A stretch of 64,000 bases of DNA from Candidatus Chlorohelix allophototropha. Its GTDB lineage: Bacteria; Chloroflexota; Chloroflexia; Chloroheliales; Chloroheliaceae. Below the pieces are notes generated by a model. That model was not told where the DNA came from and searched no databases. It was given only the letters and a program-made list of their open reading frames with translations. Where the stretch lies: the NCBI RefSeq assembly GCF_030389965.1, contig NZ_CP128399.1, forward strand, positions 124,001 through 188,000. Reading direction: 5' to 3'. Positions 17,817 to 23,640 of this stretch are shown here, piece after piece. Numbering within the stretch: position 1 is the first letter of the stretch; every line of letters begins with the position of its first letter. The translations under genes were made by a program, and so were the position numbers.

Positions 17817-18206
17817 ATGACAACCGTTGAAACTTGTCCAAATTGTAAGAAACCCTTTAATCAAGATTCTACTAGCTCCCATGCTCCTATTTTAGTATGC
17901 TCGAATTGTGGAGCTAGCTTATTTAAGCAAAGCATCACTGCAAATATTATTTCAAAACCTAAAATAGTTTTAAAAGCAAAAAATGGCGGTAAGGGTAAAC
18001 CCTTTATTGAAATCATAGTTGGTTATGATTGGTCTCAGGCACTAAAGCGCTTTGTTAATAAATATAGGCTTGTTGATCGTCACAGTAATAAATATAAAGA
18101 AGTCATTAGTGATGGTGAAACTGATAATGTAATTCACTTTTGCGAAGAACCCTTAAACGAGCATCAAGATCGGGGTACCGCTAAACTTAAAAAAAGTCCT
18201 GATTAA
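17817..18206 (+). CDS. zinc-ribbon protein of unknown function
   Basis: A 129-residue protein with an N-terminal zinc ribbon, CPNC (residues 7-10) and CSNC (about 28-31), and a mixed alpha/beta C-terminal part ending in a charged tail. I do not recognise the C-terminal domain. Codon use is clearly more A+T-rich than in the RecD2 gene 18 bases upstream, which hints at a different origin, although the two may be cotranscribed. Start ATG at 17817 has only a weak upstream AGAG. No paralogue in the window shares the C-terminal part. Confidence 0.68.
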   Translation: MTTVETCPNCKKPFNQDSTSSHAPILVCSNCGASLFKQSITANIISKPKIVLKAKNGGKGKPFIEIIVGYDWSQALKRFVNKYRLVDRHSNKYKEVISDGETDNVIHFCEEPLNEHQDRGTAKLKKSPD

Positions 18207-18235
18207 TATACTCTTTTTGAGTTGAAAACTGAATC

Positions 18236-18263
18236 AAAAAAGCAGGACTTTCTCAAGCCCTGC
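18236..18263 (-). terminator. intrinsic terminator of the lysine operon
   Basis: On the - strand GCAGG (18263-18259) pairs with CCTGC (18246-18242), with inner CTT/AAG pairing across one mismatch, followed by six T (A at 18236-18241 on the + strand). It lies 28 bases after the lysJ stop. Confidence 0.75.
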
Positions 18264-18291
18264 CGTTTCTACGTGTTCAGTTATGCTGAAA

Positions 18292-19476
18292 TTAGCCCAG
18301 AACCGCGATGAGTTGCTCAATCGCGAAATCGAGGTCGGCTTTCTCGATGACCAGCGGTGGAAGCAGACGCAATACGTTCGGTCCGGCGGGTAACGCCAGC
18401 ACGCTCCTTTCCAACAAGGCTTTCAGGTAAGGCACGACCTTCTGCTTTAACTCGATGCCGGTAATCAGCCCACGTCCGCGAATTTCACGCACCACATCGC
18501 CCTTTTCCGCAAGCGGCTCAAGGCGAGAGCGCAGATAATCGCCCATCTCGGTGGCGCGTTCCTCCAGTTTGTTATCCTGCATAAACTGGATGGCGGCGAT
18601 AGCGGCGGCGCAAGCCAATGGGTTACCGCCAAAGGTTGTGCCATGCGTACTTTTTTGCAGTTCGCCGAACTTCTCGTCAATTAGCACCGCGCCCATCGGC
18701 ATGCCGCCCCCGATGGCTTTCGCCAGCGCCATGATGTCGCCCCGCACGCCCTCATGGTCGCCACCCCAAAACTTGCCGGTTCGGCAGAAGCCGGTCTGAA
18801 TCTCATCCAAAATCAGCAGCACTCCCGTTTCGTCGCAAAGCTGGCGCAACTCGCGCAGGTATCCGGCGGGCGGTATATGCACCCCACCCTCACCTTGAAT
18901 CGGCTCAACCAGAATTGCGGCGGTATTTTCAGTAATGGCGTTGCGCAACGGCTCGATTTTGCCGTAAGGTACGTGGCTGAAGCCCGGCACTAACGGCATG
19001 AAAGGCTCGCGATACTTTTTCTCCCACGTTGCGCTCAGCGCACCCATCGAGCGACCGTGAAAGCTGCGTACAGTGGCGATGATATCGGTTTTGCTTGTAA
19101 TGAGGCGGGCAAACTTGATGGAAGCCTCTATCGCCTCTGTACCGCTGTTGCACAGGAACACTCGGCGTAATCCGGCGGGGGCAACCTCGACCAATTTTCG
19201 CAAAAGTTCGGCACGCTTATCGTTGTAGAAAATCTCAGGGCAAGTAATCAAACGTTTAGCCTGTTCCTCGATGGCTTTCACCACCAATGGGTTGCAGTGA
19301 CCTACGTTTGCCACGCCCTGACCACCCACGCAATCCACATAGCGATTGCCTTTATCGTCCCACAGTATAGCCCCTTCCCCTCGCACGATATTTACTTCGC
19401 GCTTGGGATATACGCCCACTTCAAGGCTATCTTCGGTGGCTCTGATTTGATCTACAACATCAAGCGTTTCGGACAT
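18292..19476 (-). CDS. lysJ: LysW-gamma-lysine/acetylornithine aminotransferase LysJ
   Basis: A 394-residue class III PLP aminotransferase. In the LysW pathway it transaminates LysW-gamma-aminoadipate semialdehyde to LysW-gamma-lysine; related enzymes act on acetylornithine. Signatures: the CNSGTEAIEASIKFAR block, the cofactor motif ILDEIQTGFCRTGKFW, the PLP lysine in ALAKAIGGGMPMG and the THGTTFGGNPLACAAA block. I chose ATG 19476 because GGAGGG lies directly upstream; a start 15 bases earlier lacks a binding site. It is the last gene of the lysW operon, 62 bases after lysZ. The assignment to lysine rather than arginine rests on the operon and its T-box. Confidence 0.92.
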   Translation of the reverse strand: MSETLDVVDQIRATEDSLEVGVYPKREVNIVRGEGAILWDDKGNRYVDCVGGQGVANVGHCNPLVVKAIEEQAKRLITCPEIFYNDKRAELLRKLVEVAPAGLRRVFLCNSGTEAIEASIKFARLITSKTDIIATVRSFHGRSMGALSATWEKKYREPFMPLVPGFSHVPYGKIEPLRNAITENTAAILVEPIQGEGGVHIPPAGYLRELRQLCDETGVLLILDEIQTGFCRTGKFWGGDHEGVRGDIMALAKAIGGGMPMGAVLIDEKFGELQKSTHGTTFGGNPLACAAAIAAIQFMQDNKLEERATEMGDYLRSRLEPLAEKGDVVREIRGRGLITGIELKQKVVPYLKALLERSVLALPAGPNVLRLLPPLVIEKADLDFAIEQLIAVLG

Positions 19477-19538
19477 TTTTCCCTCCATCAAACTCAGGGG
19501 ATAGTAACCCGTTTCAGAAAACAGGTCATCCAGAATGA

Positions 19539-20345
19539 TTAACTGATCACTGTGCCATTGTGCGCTATTGCGGCGGAAATGGGTTTATCTACCCGCGCAT
19601 CGGCGAAAATTACCTCTTTTACGCCTTCTTGCAACGCTTCCGATGCGCCCATTACCTTTTTCTTGAAGCGCCCTTCGGCAAAGCTCATGCTCTCTTCCAC
19701 AAAGGCTTTTTCAATATGGGTGATGAGCGAGCTTTCGTCCTTCACGTCACGCAACAAGCCCGGCACGTTGCTCAAAATGATAAGCTGGTCAACTCCCAGT
19801 GAAGAAGCAATAATAGCGGCGGCGCGATCTCCATCTACGTTGATTGCCTCGCCCGCGTAGCTAATAGCGGGAGGCGTTACTACCGGCAAATAGCCGTTAT
19901 CCAGCAGCAGGGTGAGCAACCCGGTATTGACCTTTTCCACTTTGCCGGTGAAATCGTCCCGCAAAATGCGCTTGCGCCCCTCGCTGTCGATGATTTTAAT
20001 GGCATCCTTGCGCGTGCCTTCCAGCAACCGCCCGTCAATCCCGCTCAAGCCTACCGCGTTTACGCCCTTTGCCTGTAGCATTTCCACGATGCGCTTGTTG
20101 ACCTTACCGCAATAAACCATCTCGAAGATTTCGAGGGTCTCGCGATCGGTATAGCGGCTTTCGTAGCCCGAAACGCTGGTTACAAACTTGGGCGGGTGTC
20201 CCAGTTTTTCGCTGAGGACGTTGGTTTCGTAAGAACCTCCATGTACCAGCACAATTTTCTGCCCGGCAGCATGCAATTCGGCTAAATCTGCGGTCACCGC
20301 CTCGTAATTAATTCCTTTTCCGCCCCCAACTTTTACGACTATCAT
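19539..20345 (-). CDS. lysZ: [LysW]-aminoadipate kinase LysZ
   Basis: A 268-residue amino-acid kinase of the ArgB/LysZ family. It phosphorylates the delta-carboxyl of LysW-bound aminoadipate with ATP. Visible motifs are the N-terminal VVKVGGGKGI, HGGSYETNVLSEKLG, the SGIDGR loop and the nucleotide-binding INVDGDRAAAIIASSL followed by LIILSNVPGLL. Its sequence layout is that of LysZ in Thermus-type operons rather than of arginine-regulated ArgB, which carries an N-terminal extension. It sits between orf131 and lysJ. Confidence 0.92.
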   Translation of the reverse strand: MIVVKVGGGKGINYEAVTADLAELHAAGQKIVLVHGGSYETNVLSEKLGHPPKFVTSVSGYESRYTDRETLEIFEMVYCGKVNKRIVEMLQAKGVNAVGLSGIDGRLLEGTRKDAIKIIDSEGRKRILRDDFTGKVEKVNTGLLTLLLDNGYLPVVTPPAISYAGEAINVDGDRAAAIIASSLGVDQLIILSNVPGLLRDVKDESSLITHIEKAFVEESMSFAEGRFKKKVMGASEALQEGVKEVIFADARVDKPISAAIAHNGTVIS

Positions 20346-20380
20346 TTGTCTTTTCTCTTAGGCTAAAAATTTATTCAACA

Positions 20381-20776
20381 TTACCAGCGCGGTGAGATAC
20401 CGCGCCGTTTGCTCAATTCCACCGAGAGTAGGTAGGTAGCTTTGCGTTCGCCAATATCCTCAGCCTTCTTGGTGTAATAGTAAATAGCCCCATCGGGCGT
20501 GTCCACTCTTCCTGCCAATGCCATATCAGTTTGTACCTGCCAAAGATATTCTTCGGCGGGTCGCATCGCGATACGATAGATAATCTGGCAAATGGTGCGT
20601 TTATCCAATTGTAAGAGCGAGTCTATCAAATCGTGTTTCTCGATATAATCGAAAGCCTGCTCGACATAGCTTACTGCCTCGTCTCTGGAGAACAACAAAT
20701 TTTCGGCAGCGTTTGCGAACTGCTTGATAATCCAGTTTTCGATATTTTGTCGCCCTAGGTATTCTATCCAGTCCAT
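20381..20776 (-). CDS. unknown protein inside the lysine operon (orf131)
   Basis: A 131-residue, mostly helical, probably soluble protein rich in aromatic and charged residues (WIEYLGRQNIENWIIKQF at the N terminus; KRRGISPRW at the C terminus). No membrane segment, no cysteine pair and no motif that I recognise. It lies between lysY (43 bases upstream) and lysZ (35 bases downstream) on the same strand, so it is transcribed with the lysine genes. It could be a small partner of the LysW-dependent enzymes or an unrelated passenger; position is the only evidence. Start ATG 20776 has a weak AGAAAG upstream. Confidence 0.72.
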   Translation of the reverse strand: MDWIEYLGRQNIENWIIKQFANAAENLLFSRDEAVSYVEQAFDYIEKHDLIDSLLQLDKRTICQIIYRIAMRPAEEYLWQVQTDMALAGRVDTPDGAIYYYTKKAEDIGERKATYLLSVELSKRRGISPRW

Positions 20777-20819
20777 ATGCCAGTCTTTCTGTTACAATCG
20801 CTCTTCAAAAAATCAGCTA

Positions 20820-21872
20820 TCAGGCAGGGTGTAGCCCGGTAAATTCAAGACTCAGCGTCTCGTCCCACCCAAACATGAGGTTCATCGCCTGTACGCAGTT
20901 ACCCGCCGCCCCTTTAACGAGGTTATCAATTGCTGAGATAACCACCAGCGCATTGCTGTTCTCGTCTTTTTCGAACCCTATGTCGCAGTAATTTGAGCCG
21001 CTCAGAATCTTGGGCTGTGGGTAGCGATAAATCCCCTCTTTGGTTTTGACGATGCGTATAAATGGTTCACTGCCGTATGCCTGACGATACACCTTCCAAA
21101 TGTCTTTCTCTTGCAAATTTTCTTTCAGGAAAACGTGACAGGTGGCAAGGATGCCGCGCACCGCCTCGACTGAGGTAACGGTGAGGTGGATATTGGGTTT
21201 TGCGCCGAAGCTAAGCTCCTGAATAATTTCGGCGCTGTGGCGGTGTCCGGTAGCTTGATAAATTCGGCTTACTCCGCTACGTTCCGGGTGATGTCCCGAA
21301 AGGCTTGGTTTGTTACCCGCCGCGCTAGAGCCGATTTTAGTTTCAGCCACTATAATATTGGTATCTACCAGCCCGTGTTTAAATAAGGGCATCAAGCCCA
21401 ACGCCACCGCGGTAGCGGAACAACCCGCCCCGGTAACGTAATTGCTCTCCCGGATTTGCTCACGATGCAATTCGGGGATACCGTACACGAATTTGGAGAG
21501 CCATTCCTTGTTGGGGTGTTCATGCTCATACCATTTCGGGTAATCGGTGGGGTCGCGTAGGCGAAAATCGGCGGAAAGGTCGATAATGCGCGGCGCAAGT
21601 TGGGCGAACTTGTCAATTTTGCCCATCGCCGAGCCATGTGGAAGCGCCAAAAACAACACATCACATTCCTCAAGCTGAGTCATGGAGATGAATTTGAGTT
21701 CGGTGCGTTTGCGTAGGTTAGGGTGAATGATGTGAACAAACTTGCCGCTGTTGGTTTCGCTGGTAATCTGCGTCACTTCCACATGGGGATGTCCAAGCAG
21801 AATTCGCAACAACTCGCCCCCAGTGTAACCGCTACCGCCAACTATGCCTACTCTAATCTTGCTGCCAGACAA
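20820..21872 (-). CDS. lysY: [LysW]-aminoadipyl phosphate reductase LysY
   Basis: A 350-residue NADPH-dependent reductase of the ArgC/LysY family, which converts the LysW-bound acyl phosphate to the semialdehyde. The N-terminal Rossmann motif is VGIVGGSGYTGGELLRILL; the catalytic cysteine is in YVTGAGCSATAVALGL; GHHPERSGVSR is the block with the catalytic histidine. Start is TTG 21872, with GGAG nine bases upstream. It follows lysX after about 70 bases that contain a stem (AACGGGA with TCCCGTT on the - strand, near 21899-21929), which may be an RNA-processing or attenuating hairpin within the operon. Confidence 0.92.
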   Translation of the reverse strand: MSGSKIRVGIVGGSGYTGGELLRILLGHPHVEVTQITSETNSGKFVHIIHPNLRKRTELKFISMTQLEECDVLFLALPHGSAMGKIDKFAQLAPRIIDLSADFRLRDPTDYPKWYEHEHPNKEWLSKFVYGIPELHREQIRESNYVTGAGCSATAVALGLMPLFKHGLVDTNIIVAETKIGSSAAGNKPSLSGHHPERSGVSRIYQATGHRHSAEIIQELSFGAKPNIHLTVTSVEAVRGILATCHVFLKENLQEKDIWKVYRQAYGSEPFIRIVKTKEGIYRYPQPKILSGSNYCDIGFEKDENSNALVVISAIDNLVKGAAGNCVQAMNLMFGWDETLSLEFTGLHPA

Positions 21873-21942
21873 TTTTTCTATCTCCTGATTTCAAGAATAA
21901 CGGGAATCAGGCTAACTTCATCCCGTTTCCCTCATTCTATAT

Positions 21943-22794
21943 TTATGAATGCTTACCTGCTCCTACTTCCAACACATAATCCACCACTCTGGCAGGGATA
22001 TTGACCCCGGTGGTGTCGATGCTGTTGCGGAATTCCATTGTGTAATTGACTTCGATTACTAGGAAGCCTCGGTTTTTGTCTTCTACCACGTCGATTGCTA
22101 CTACGCCACCACCTACTGCTTTGGCAGCACGCACGCAAATATCGTTAAGCTCCGGCGTTATGGGGCAATTAGTAGCTTCCCCGCCCCGCGCCGTATTGGT
22201 AATCCAGTGAGGGCTGCGGCGATAAATAGCGCAGATGGTTTCACCGCCTACCACGAAGGCGCGAATATCGCGTTCGGGTTTGGCAATATACTCTTGCACA
22301 TAGAAAATGCTATGTTCGTAATGACCCAGCGTTTCCTTGTGTTCCAGAACAGCTTCGGCGGCTTCGCGATCGTTGAGTTTTGCTAACAAGCGTCCCCATG
22401 AACCCACCGGTGGTTTGATTACTACCGGATAGCCCAGTTCTTCAATCGCTTGCAAAGCCGACTCGGGGGTAAAAGCCAGTTTGGTGACAGGGCTTGCCAC
22501 ACCAGCGTGAATCAATGCTTGGGTGGTAAGAAATTTATTGCCGCAAACGTTCGCCACGTGATAGGTGTTGACGGTGGGAATACCCCAGTCGTTCAATATT
22601 TTGAGAGCGTAGAGGGCGCGGCTGTGGTTAATACAGCGTTCCACTACCACATCATATTCAAAAGGTTTTTTCTCAAGGTCAAAAACCAGTTCCGGATCGT
22701 AGAGACGATCAAACCCAATGCCGCGCTTTTCAAACTCGGCAAAAAGTAATTTTTCTTCCACTCTGACCCGCGAAAGCAGCATGCCGATCTTCAT
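21943..22794 (-). CDS. lysX: aminoadipate-LysW ligase LysX
   Basis: A 283-residue ATP-grasp ligase of the RimK/LysX family. It joins the amino group of alpha-aminoadipate to the C-terminal glutamate of LysW, protecting and carrying the substrate. ATP-grasp elements: [29 protein letters not shown], the hinge [18 protein letters not shown], and the metal-binding [13 protein letters not shown]. The [10 protein letters not shown] stretch is typical of LysX-type proteins. It begins three bases after lysW, its protein substrate. Confidence 0.94.
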
Positions 22795-22797
22795 GGT

Positions 22798-22965
22798 TTA
22801 TTCGCCCCAATCCTCTTCTTCTTCGGGCGCTACCGCCAGTTCTATCGGGTTGACACTGACTACTTCCAGTTCTGCGCCACAATCGGGGCATTGTACGATT
22901 TCCCCTTTTTCTACATTCGCAGCGAGAGTCAAGGTTGCGCCGCATTCAGGACATTCAGCTGGCAT
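22798..22965 (-). CDS. lysW: amino-group carrier protein LysW
   Basis: A 55-residue carrier protein. The N-terminal zinc finger has CPEC and CPDC (cysteines near 5, 8, 26 and 29). The C-terminal tail is strongly acidic and ends EEEEDWGE, the hallmark EDWGE of LysW, whose final glutamate binds the amino group of aminoadipate. ATG 22965 is set by AAAGGAG nine bases upstream; the longer reading frame runs back through the T-box terminator and is not coding. It is the first gene of the lysine operon, directly downstream of the T-box leader. Confidence 0.96.
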
Positions 22966-23020
22966 TTTCACATCTCCTTTTACAATGAATTTAGAGCTAT
23001 TTTGACCATGATAATATAAC

Positions 23021-23348
23021 AAAAAAACGACACTTTCGCCCATTTTTATAAGGACGAATGTGTCGCACAAAGCAATCACCTAATTCGTGTTACCACCTTA
23101 CTTCGCTGCGCACCTTACGGTAAGCAGCCTCGCCCGGTTTATACCAACCGGCGCTCTATAACGGGAGCATCCCGAACGGTTCTACTTTCTGGCGGCATTA
23201 CTCCGCAAAATTTCTTCCGTTAGCTCGGCGGTCTTTCTCGAAGCGACATGCTGACCACCCTTACAGCGCTTGGGGTGGCTCTCTGGTAGCTATGCCACAG
23301 CTTCTAACTATCCGCGTCTTGGCTTTGTTAGCCTGTGAAAATTCGATT
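23021..23348 (-). promoter_or_regulatory. lysine T-box leader of the lysW operon
   Basis: Read on the - strand, the leader has all main T-box parts. Stem I carries AGAGAG followed by the distal loop block GCGCTGTAAG (near 23269-23258). A specifier loop follows with GAGA-AAG-A; AAG at 23235-23233 (or AAA one base earlier) is a lysine codon in either reading. Stem II/III sequences include AGTAGAACC. The T-box bulge AAGGTGGTAACACGAA lies at 23099-23084. A terminator follows: CGACAC (23065-23060) pairs with GTGTCG (23033-23028), with inner TTCG/CGAA, then seven T (23027-23021). Uncharged tRNA-Lys should stabilise the antiterminator and switch the operon on. Confidence 0.88.
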
Positions 23349-23354
23349 TTTGAG

Positions 23355-23383
23355 ATTTTACATCACTGCCGCAGGTGAGTCAA
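23355..23383 (-). promoter_or_regulatory. promoter of the lysW operon
   Basis: On the - strand TTGACT (23383-23378) and TAAAAT (23360-23355) are 17 bases apart. Transcription should start near 23348, just before stem I of the T-box. Confidence 0.75.
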
Positions 23384-23420
23384 ACCTAAAAAAGTTTTTA
23401 CAAATCCGAATTTTATGCTA

Positions 23421-23640
23421 TTTACTTTTCCACAAGCCTGTTCTAAAATGTAAATATAGCTGTGTGGGGAGCAGCTCACGTTTGTAGTATGAGTCTCAGC
23501 AAAGCCCCGTATTGTTTTAGTTCTCCTTAGCAATGCCGGTCAACCATATACTTAAAACTTTGAGCCCCCCTGCTCTCACAGTCTTTTCAATCTGACAGAC
23601 AGATTGAACGCGCTCCACTCCTTTGTGGGGCTTTTGGTCA
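23421..23640 (+). ncRNA. candidate structured RNA of about 185 nt (6S-like hairpin)
   Basis: A promoter-like pair, TTTACT (23421-23426) and TAAAAT (23444-23449) with 17 bases between, predicts a start near 23456. The transcript would fold into one long imperfect hairpin: CTGTG...GGAGCAG (23460-23474) with CTGCTCTCACAG (23570-23581), CTCA (23476-23479) with TGAG (23561-23564), AGTAT with ATACT, and CCG.ATTG near the tip with CAATGCCGG. A perfect hairpin TTCAATCTG-ACAGA-CAGATTGAA (23586-23608) and a terminator (GCTCCAC/GTGGGGC, 23612-23631, then TTTT) follow. Size and rod-like shape recall 6S RNA, but I cannot confirm it. It may instead be a leader of the gene at 23681. AAAGCCCC at 23501-23508 could also pair with GGGGCTTT of the terminator. 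Confidence 0.45.

Follow-up and report, generated by a model that had tools for sequence, protein, structure and literature searches.

The window, a 64,000-nucleotide stretch of the Candidatus Chlorohelix allophototropha genome, contains a T-box leader that directly precedes the genes lysW-lysX-lysY-(orf)-lysZ-lysJ, all on one strand with no more than about 70 bases between neighbours. The strain, L227-S17, is described as having two chromosomes and five replicons (PMC10972752). In the direction of transcription, the features of the locus are as follows.

23378..23383, - strand: -35 hexamer TTGACT, which with the -10 hexamer forms the best promoter-like match (10/12) in 18000-23600
23355..23360, - strand: -10 hexamer TAAAAT, after a 17-nt spacer
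23047..23329, - strand: T-box leader, full-length match to RF00230 (68.2 bits, E 1.3e-14)
23279..23285, - strand: Stem I AG bulge CAGAGAG, followed by the distal hairpin GCCACCC...GGGTGGT (model alignment and sequence)
23232..23239, - strand: specifier loop GAGAAAGA (GAG-A-AAG-A; model alignment and sequence)
23233..23235, - strand: specifier codon AAG (Lys), in the register of sibling T-boxes and related leaders
23159..23165, - strand: F-box CCCGTTA, stem IIA/B region (model alignment and sequence)
23083..23100, - strand: antiterminator 5′ arm (sequence and folding)
23086..23097, - strand: T-box core GGTGGTAACACG, whose UGGU bulge complements a tRNA 3′ end with A73
23049..23059, - strand: antiterminator 3′ arm ATTCGTCCTTA (sequence and folding)
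23021..23066, - strand: intrinsic terminator with seven T (-20.8 kcal/mol alone)
22974..22980, - strand: ribosome binding site AAAGGAG (from sequence)
22798..22965, - strand: lysW, carrier protein (TIGR01206, 83.7 bits against a cut-off of 53.2; PF21344; C-terminus EEEEDWGE)
21943..22794, - strand: lysX, LysW-aminoadipate ligase (TIGR02144, 351.8 bits against a cut-off of 275.6; 10-residue motif and EFRNS)
20820..21872, - strand: lysY, argC-like reductase (TIGR01850, 400.9 bits)
20381..20776, - strand: 131-aa protein of unknown family, between lysY and lysZ
19539..20345, - strand: lysZ, LysW-aminoadipate kinase (NF010659, 428.6 bits against a cut-off of 223)
18292..19491, - strand: lysJ, aminotransferase (best match NF042418 LysJ, 465 bits, below the cut-off of 700; argD subfamily above its cut-off)
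18241..18264, - strand: likely operon terminator 3′ of lysJ (10-pair stem, T tail)

The carrier protein retains the C-terminal EDWGE, and kinase, reductase and aminotransferase are all encoded in the operon, LysJ scoring below its equivalog cut-off. No lysK lies within the operon. The 131-aa reading frame has no NCBIfam or Pfam match, and tblastn of the fetched loci returned no credible homologue. Among named sequences, the nearest relatives of LysX belong to Chloroflexi metagenome-assembled genomes including 54-19, a label under which GTDB formerly listed the order of Ca. Chlorohelix allophototropha (PMC10972752).

The initial annotation placed a T-box leader at 23021-23383 on the - strand, with a TTGACT-N17-TAAAAT promoter, a T-box core, a stem I distal loop and a seven-T terminator. 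The coordinates proved exact and each element was located where claimed. Covariance searching over 701 bases gave a full-length RF00230 match (1-219) at 23329-23047, and the same match was recovered in a 6.1-Mb genome-wide search (E 2.7e-14). Stem I with its AG bulge and apical loop is present in the model alignment, the sequence motifs AGTAGA and CCCGTTA, which would belong to a stem II S-turn and a stem IIA/B pseudoknot, both occur, and the conserved T-box with its UGGN bulge lies inside the antiterminator. Terminator and antiterminator are mutually exclusive, the first 8 bases of the antiterminator 3′ arm (23052-23059) being shared with the terminator 5′ arm, and the terminator hairpin (23066-23028) is followed by exactly seven T (23027-23021). 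The predicted fold carries the terminator at -27.4 kcal/mol, compared with -16.9 kcal/mol when the antiterminator is enforced, both without tRNA; this calculated advantage of about 10 kcal/mol is as expected for a switch that is off by default. At the Rfam gathering score of 93 bits, which is a curation convention and not a biological feature, no Rfam family is reported within the window. This reflects the cut-off and not the absence of a T-box: among the ten clear T-boxes found in the genome, five score below 93 bits, those of thrS, ileS and leuS included.

The leader might nevertheless be a relic that has kept its RNA shape but not its function, with the operon expressed constitutively or under some other control. 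It scores lower than most sibling T-boxes in the genome-wide search, and the closest relative, G002 (LysX 83% identical), has lost the T-box. The G002 lysW leader (L118:1106-1313) still has the promoter, with unchanged spacing, and both arms of the terminator, but some 230 bases of T-box are missing and Rfam finds no T-box there, an apparent internal loss of the sensor as judged from sequence. In the window leader, by contrast, every functional element is intact, the T run and the two competing arms among them, and its predicted fold is more stable than those of 99 out of 100 shuffled sequences (z -3.15). We therefore consider a relic quite unlikely.

The identity of the amino acid sensed depends on the register in which the specifier loop is read. 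The sibling T-boxes with known targets (the glyS leader was left out) follow a common rule, namely the codon, one base, about five bases and then GAG or GAA. In this register all show cognate codons: UGG for trpE, UUC for pheS and a DAHP synthase, ACC for thrS and asd-thrC, GUA for valS, CUC for leuS and AUC for ileS. The same register yields AAG in the window leader, cognate to the genes it precedes. More than 40 related leaders provide a second line of support. The base after the codon varies among them, so a reading displaced by +1 alternates between arginine and serine, and a -1 reading is mixed; register 0 alone always gives lysine, as AAG or in a few cases AAA (the second leader at L280 is ambiguous between the two). 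Because siblings and related leaders fix the register, the specifier of the window leader reads as AAG, lysine; the proposed lysine specifier thus holds, and no non-lysine codon occupies the position. Codons such as ATC, CTG and CCG, returned as 'specifiers' by a simple script, were rejected as false, since the distance from the AG bulge gives AAG or AAA. Genes for tRNA-Lys(CUU) and tRNA-Lys(UUU) are both present in the genome and both have A73, which fits the UGGU bulge. A73 is likewise found in two AGR-reading tRNA-Arg genes, and the bulge thus cannot tell lysine from arginine tRNAs.

Evidence on the product of the operon comes from LysX and from the rest of the genome. The window LysX has a 10-residue motif as in Thermus LysX, with EFRNS where Thermus has EFKNS, while Sulfolobus ArgX aligns at these positions as NEWRANVALGG and EFKGF. 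Sulfolobus LysX becomes glutamate-specific when Asn-Thr of its signature motif is replaced by Gly-Phe (PMC10433800), and the N or G of EF[KR]N and EF[KR]G is taken to be that site. The argJ gene and a second argC, argB and argD are encoded elsewhere in the genome, dapB has no match in it, and its sole DHDPS-family gene scores below the dapA cut-off. From ArgJ, the missing dapB and the Thermus-like motif we infer the substrate of LysX and, as the most likely product of the operon, lysine and not arginine, as the initial annotation had argued. A strong LysA match (499 bits) is found at L188 (G000:C1:859583-860821) despite the lack of a dapB match, so part of the DAP gene set persists.

These observations also bear on two readings in which arginine is involved. 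In the first, the specifier is shifted by one base to AGA, which would make the leader an arginine T-box and arginine or ornithine the product built on LysW. Some archaea do make arginine by LysW pathways (PMC10433800), and true arginine T-boxes precede LysW clusters in relatives. Those T-boxes, however, read CGC in the same register that is fixed for the window leader by its siblings and related T-boxes, and ArgJ with the second ArgC, ArgB and ArgD, together with the motif of LysX, also speaks against this reading; an arginine T-box is extremely improbable. In the second, the lysine T-box is real and the operon is bifunctional, also supplying ornithine for arginine, given that in hyperthermophilic archaea the LysW enzymes acting after LysX take both substrates (PMC10433800). 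This is very unlikely here, since the genome encodes a complete and separate acetyl-cycle set including ArgJ, and genomes that seemingly use the carrier for arginine have an extra EFxG ligase and no ArgJ.

The preferred reading is thus that the leader is very probably a canonical transcription-attenuating tRNA-Lys T-box controlling a LysW-carrier lysine operon. From its architecture we infer tRNA binding and read-through that depends on charging. Transcription would start from the promoter at 23383-23355 to make the leader, in which Stem I would present AAG to the anticodon of tRNA-Lys (CUU, or UUU by wobble). When this tRNA is charged, the terminator (23066-23021) would form and transcription would stop. 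The free NCCA end of an uncharged tRNA would instead pair with the UGGU bulge and hold the antiterminator (23100-23083 with 23059-23049); the terminator would then not form, and lysW, lysX, lysY, the small orf, lysZ and lysJ would be made.

Control of the aminoadipate/LysW pathway by the T-box, as originally proposed, stands for the LysW operon but does not extend to homocitrate synthase. The homocitrate-synthase-like gene (C2:1685907-1686695; best family TIGR02146, 367.5 bits, below the cut-off of 413.6) lies on the other chromosome, and neither the genome-wide search nor reading of the locus found a recognisable T-box there; in this genome, the reach of the switch would accordingly be limited to the LysW half. 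Within L094:8704-10777 on that second chromosome, the homocitrate-synthase-like gene adjoins a divergent LysX paralogue (44%) without the WITNTARGG motif.

The joining of a T-box to the LysW pathway, put forward at first for this locus, is real but is not a one-off. LysX was searched for in 41 near genomes and 400 genomes of the phylum, and in about 90 of them the surrounding genes were examined. Lysine T-boxes (AAG, rarely AAA) precede LysW, LysX or homocitrate-synthase genes in nine Chloroflexota families. They were found in one of five genomes of family f1 (the window genome only), in all nine loci read in f7, in 6/6 in f25 and in 15/15 in f27, with further cases in f9 (G022), f13 (L222), f34 (L248), f43 (L251) and f24 (L240, where the contig end cuts the locus); the named Chloroflexi CF_57 (L081), listed with f25, also has one. 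Other members of the window genome's family, G001, G003 and G004, have no T-box at the lysW locus, and with G002 also lacking one the switch is not shared among close kin. Outside the window locus, Rfam confirms 19 leaders, with four tandem pairs among them, and 17 loci in which the script found no T-box were also negative by Rfam. An alignment of 19 related lysine T-boxes contains compensatory changes in 35 of 43 predicted pairs. On the sequence evidence, therefore, the pairing is widespread in Chloroflexota and not peculiar to the window locus. Mapped onto the LysX/ArgX tree, the T-box label must change 8 times, and well-supported branches require at least 4 of these changes, which indicates several gains or losses. 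In f7, the ligase with the T-box is encoded away from the main LysW cluster, and that cluster has a ligase of its own, of the EFKGL type.

Two T-boxes lie in tandem before lysW in 14 of the 15 f27 loci (L255, L256, L265, L266, L268, L272, L274-L277, L280, L281, L285 and L286), nearly every copy with its own T run; the fifteenth locus begins at a contig end. How tandem T-boxes act is stated to be unknown in PMC7583486.

Arginine T-boxes occupy a corresponding position in genomes without ArgJ (L294-L297, L176:4073-4325 and L300, the last a weak match with E 0.026). CGC T-boxes in f3 head argG-argH-lysW-lysX-lysK-argX-lysY-lysZ-lysJ, and those in f9 precede LysW clusters. Both specificities meet in G022, where an arginine T-box precedes argF, lysW, lysK and an EFHGL ligase and a lysine T-box after these precedes an EFRNS ligase and lysY, so that each T-box stands ahead of a ligase of the corresponding type. 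The T-box at L295, considered as a lysine T-box upstream of LysX, was dropped, being an arginine T-box before argG. Over 37 genomes, ArgX-type ligases hardly ever occur together with ArgJ: where an EFxG ligase is encoded (f3, f7, f9, f25), ArgJ is missing, save for a 120-aa fragment in G213, and ArgJ is present in all tested genomes in which the EFRN ligase was the sole type seen (f1, f6, f8, f10, f13, f27, f34, f43). G064 (f24) has no ArgJ, its second ligase lying outside the comparison. This profile supports the motif-based split of the ligases and, through it, lysine as the product of the window operon.

Whether a LysW operon serves lysine or arginine is known to be hard to decide from sequence. 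In relatives, arginine T-boxes occur where the pathway appears to serve arginine as well; the switch would accordingly indicate the amino acid produced, and a tRNA-specific switch offers an independent, testable label with which the ArgJ profile agrees. We consider it probable that T-boxes were recruited onto the LysW pathway in Chloroflexota and sort this pathway by amino acid, with lysine T-boxes before LysX-type ligases and arginine T-boxes before arginine-use clusters. Two tRNAs would then separately control two branches that share LysW in G022, and the specifier codon would read out the substrate of LysX/ArgX ligases that are ambiguous by themselves. The tandem lysine T-boxes and the arginine/lysine double cluster provide natural material on two tRNA sensors sharing one carrier.

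With the transcriptional T-box family (RF00230) the window leader shares the Stem I AG bulge and distal loop, specifier loop, F-box, UGGN bulge and competing terminator; it differs in its LysW-pathway target and in AAG, a minor lysine specifier found in 13% of lysine T-boxes in TBDB (PMC7778990). The initial annotation had counted the DAP lysine genes among the usual T-box targets. This is not borne out, as lysine is among the rarest specificity classes in TBDB (PMC7778990), T-boxes of LysRS genes were found in only four species (PMC2916919) and, in the literature searched, lysine T-boxes are described for synthetases and transporters only (PMC2916919, PMC2494555). The family-wide lysine set with its unusual AAG is consequently useful for studies of T-box codon choice. 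The Bacillus cereus lysK (LysRS1) T-box also responds to uncharged tRNA-Lys but controls a Firmicutes synthetase (PMC2916919), and the T-boxes of Dehalococcoides (ileS, trpE, trpB-like), likewise in Chloroflexota, are for isoleucine and tryptophan only (PMC2494555). The lysine and arginine pathways of Thermus and Sulfolobus use the same LysW, LysX, LysY, LysZ and LysJ, with EDWGE and the ligase motifs, and no T-box control is described for them in PMC3356886 and PMC10433800. The lysine riboswitch (L-box) is another RNA control of lysine genes but senses free lysine and not tRNA (PMC5584792); the 'lysW' of that work is an unrelated NhaC-type transporter. The RNA mechanism is canonical, while the LysW pathway appears to be undescribed as a T-box target: no account of a T-box paired with LysW or LysX was found in the literature searched, T-box reviews and TBDB tables lying outside that search.

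Other T-boxes were noticed in the course of this work. The asd and thrC genes are under a threonine (ACC) T-box (L003 / L096:5118-7458), and the DAHP synthase is under a phenylalanine (UUC) T-box (L002). Upstream of leuS, a tRNA-Ala(GGC) gene (1678-1753) is nested inside the leucine (CUC) T-box leader (L006:1501-1823), on the same strand and between the F-box region and the antiterminator, such that its excision would part Stem I from the antiterminator. This arrangement is kept in 5/5 genomes of the family (L006, L152, L155, L160 and L167).
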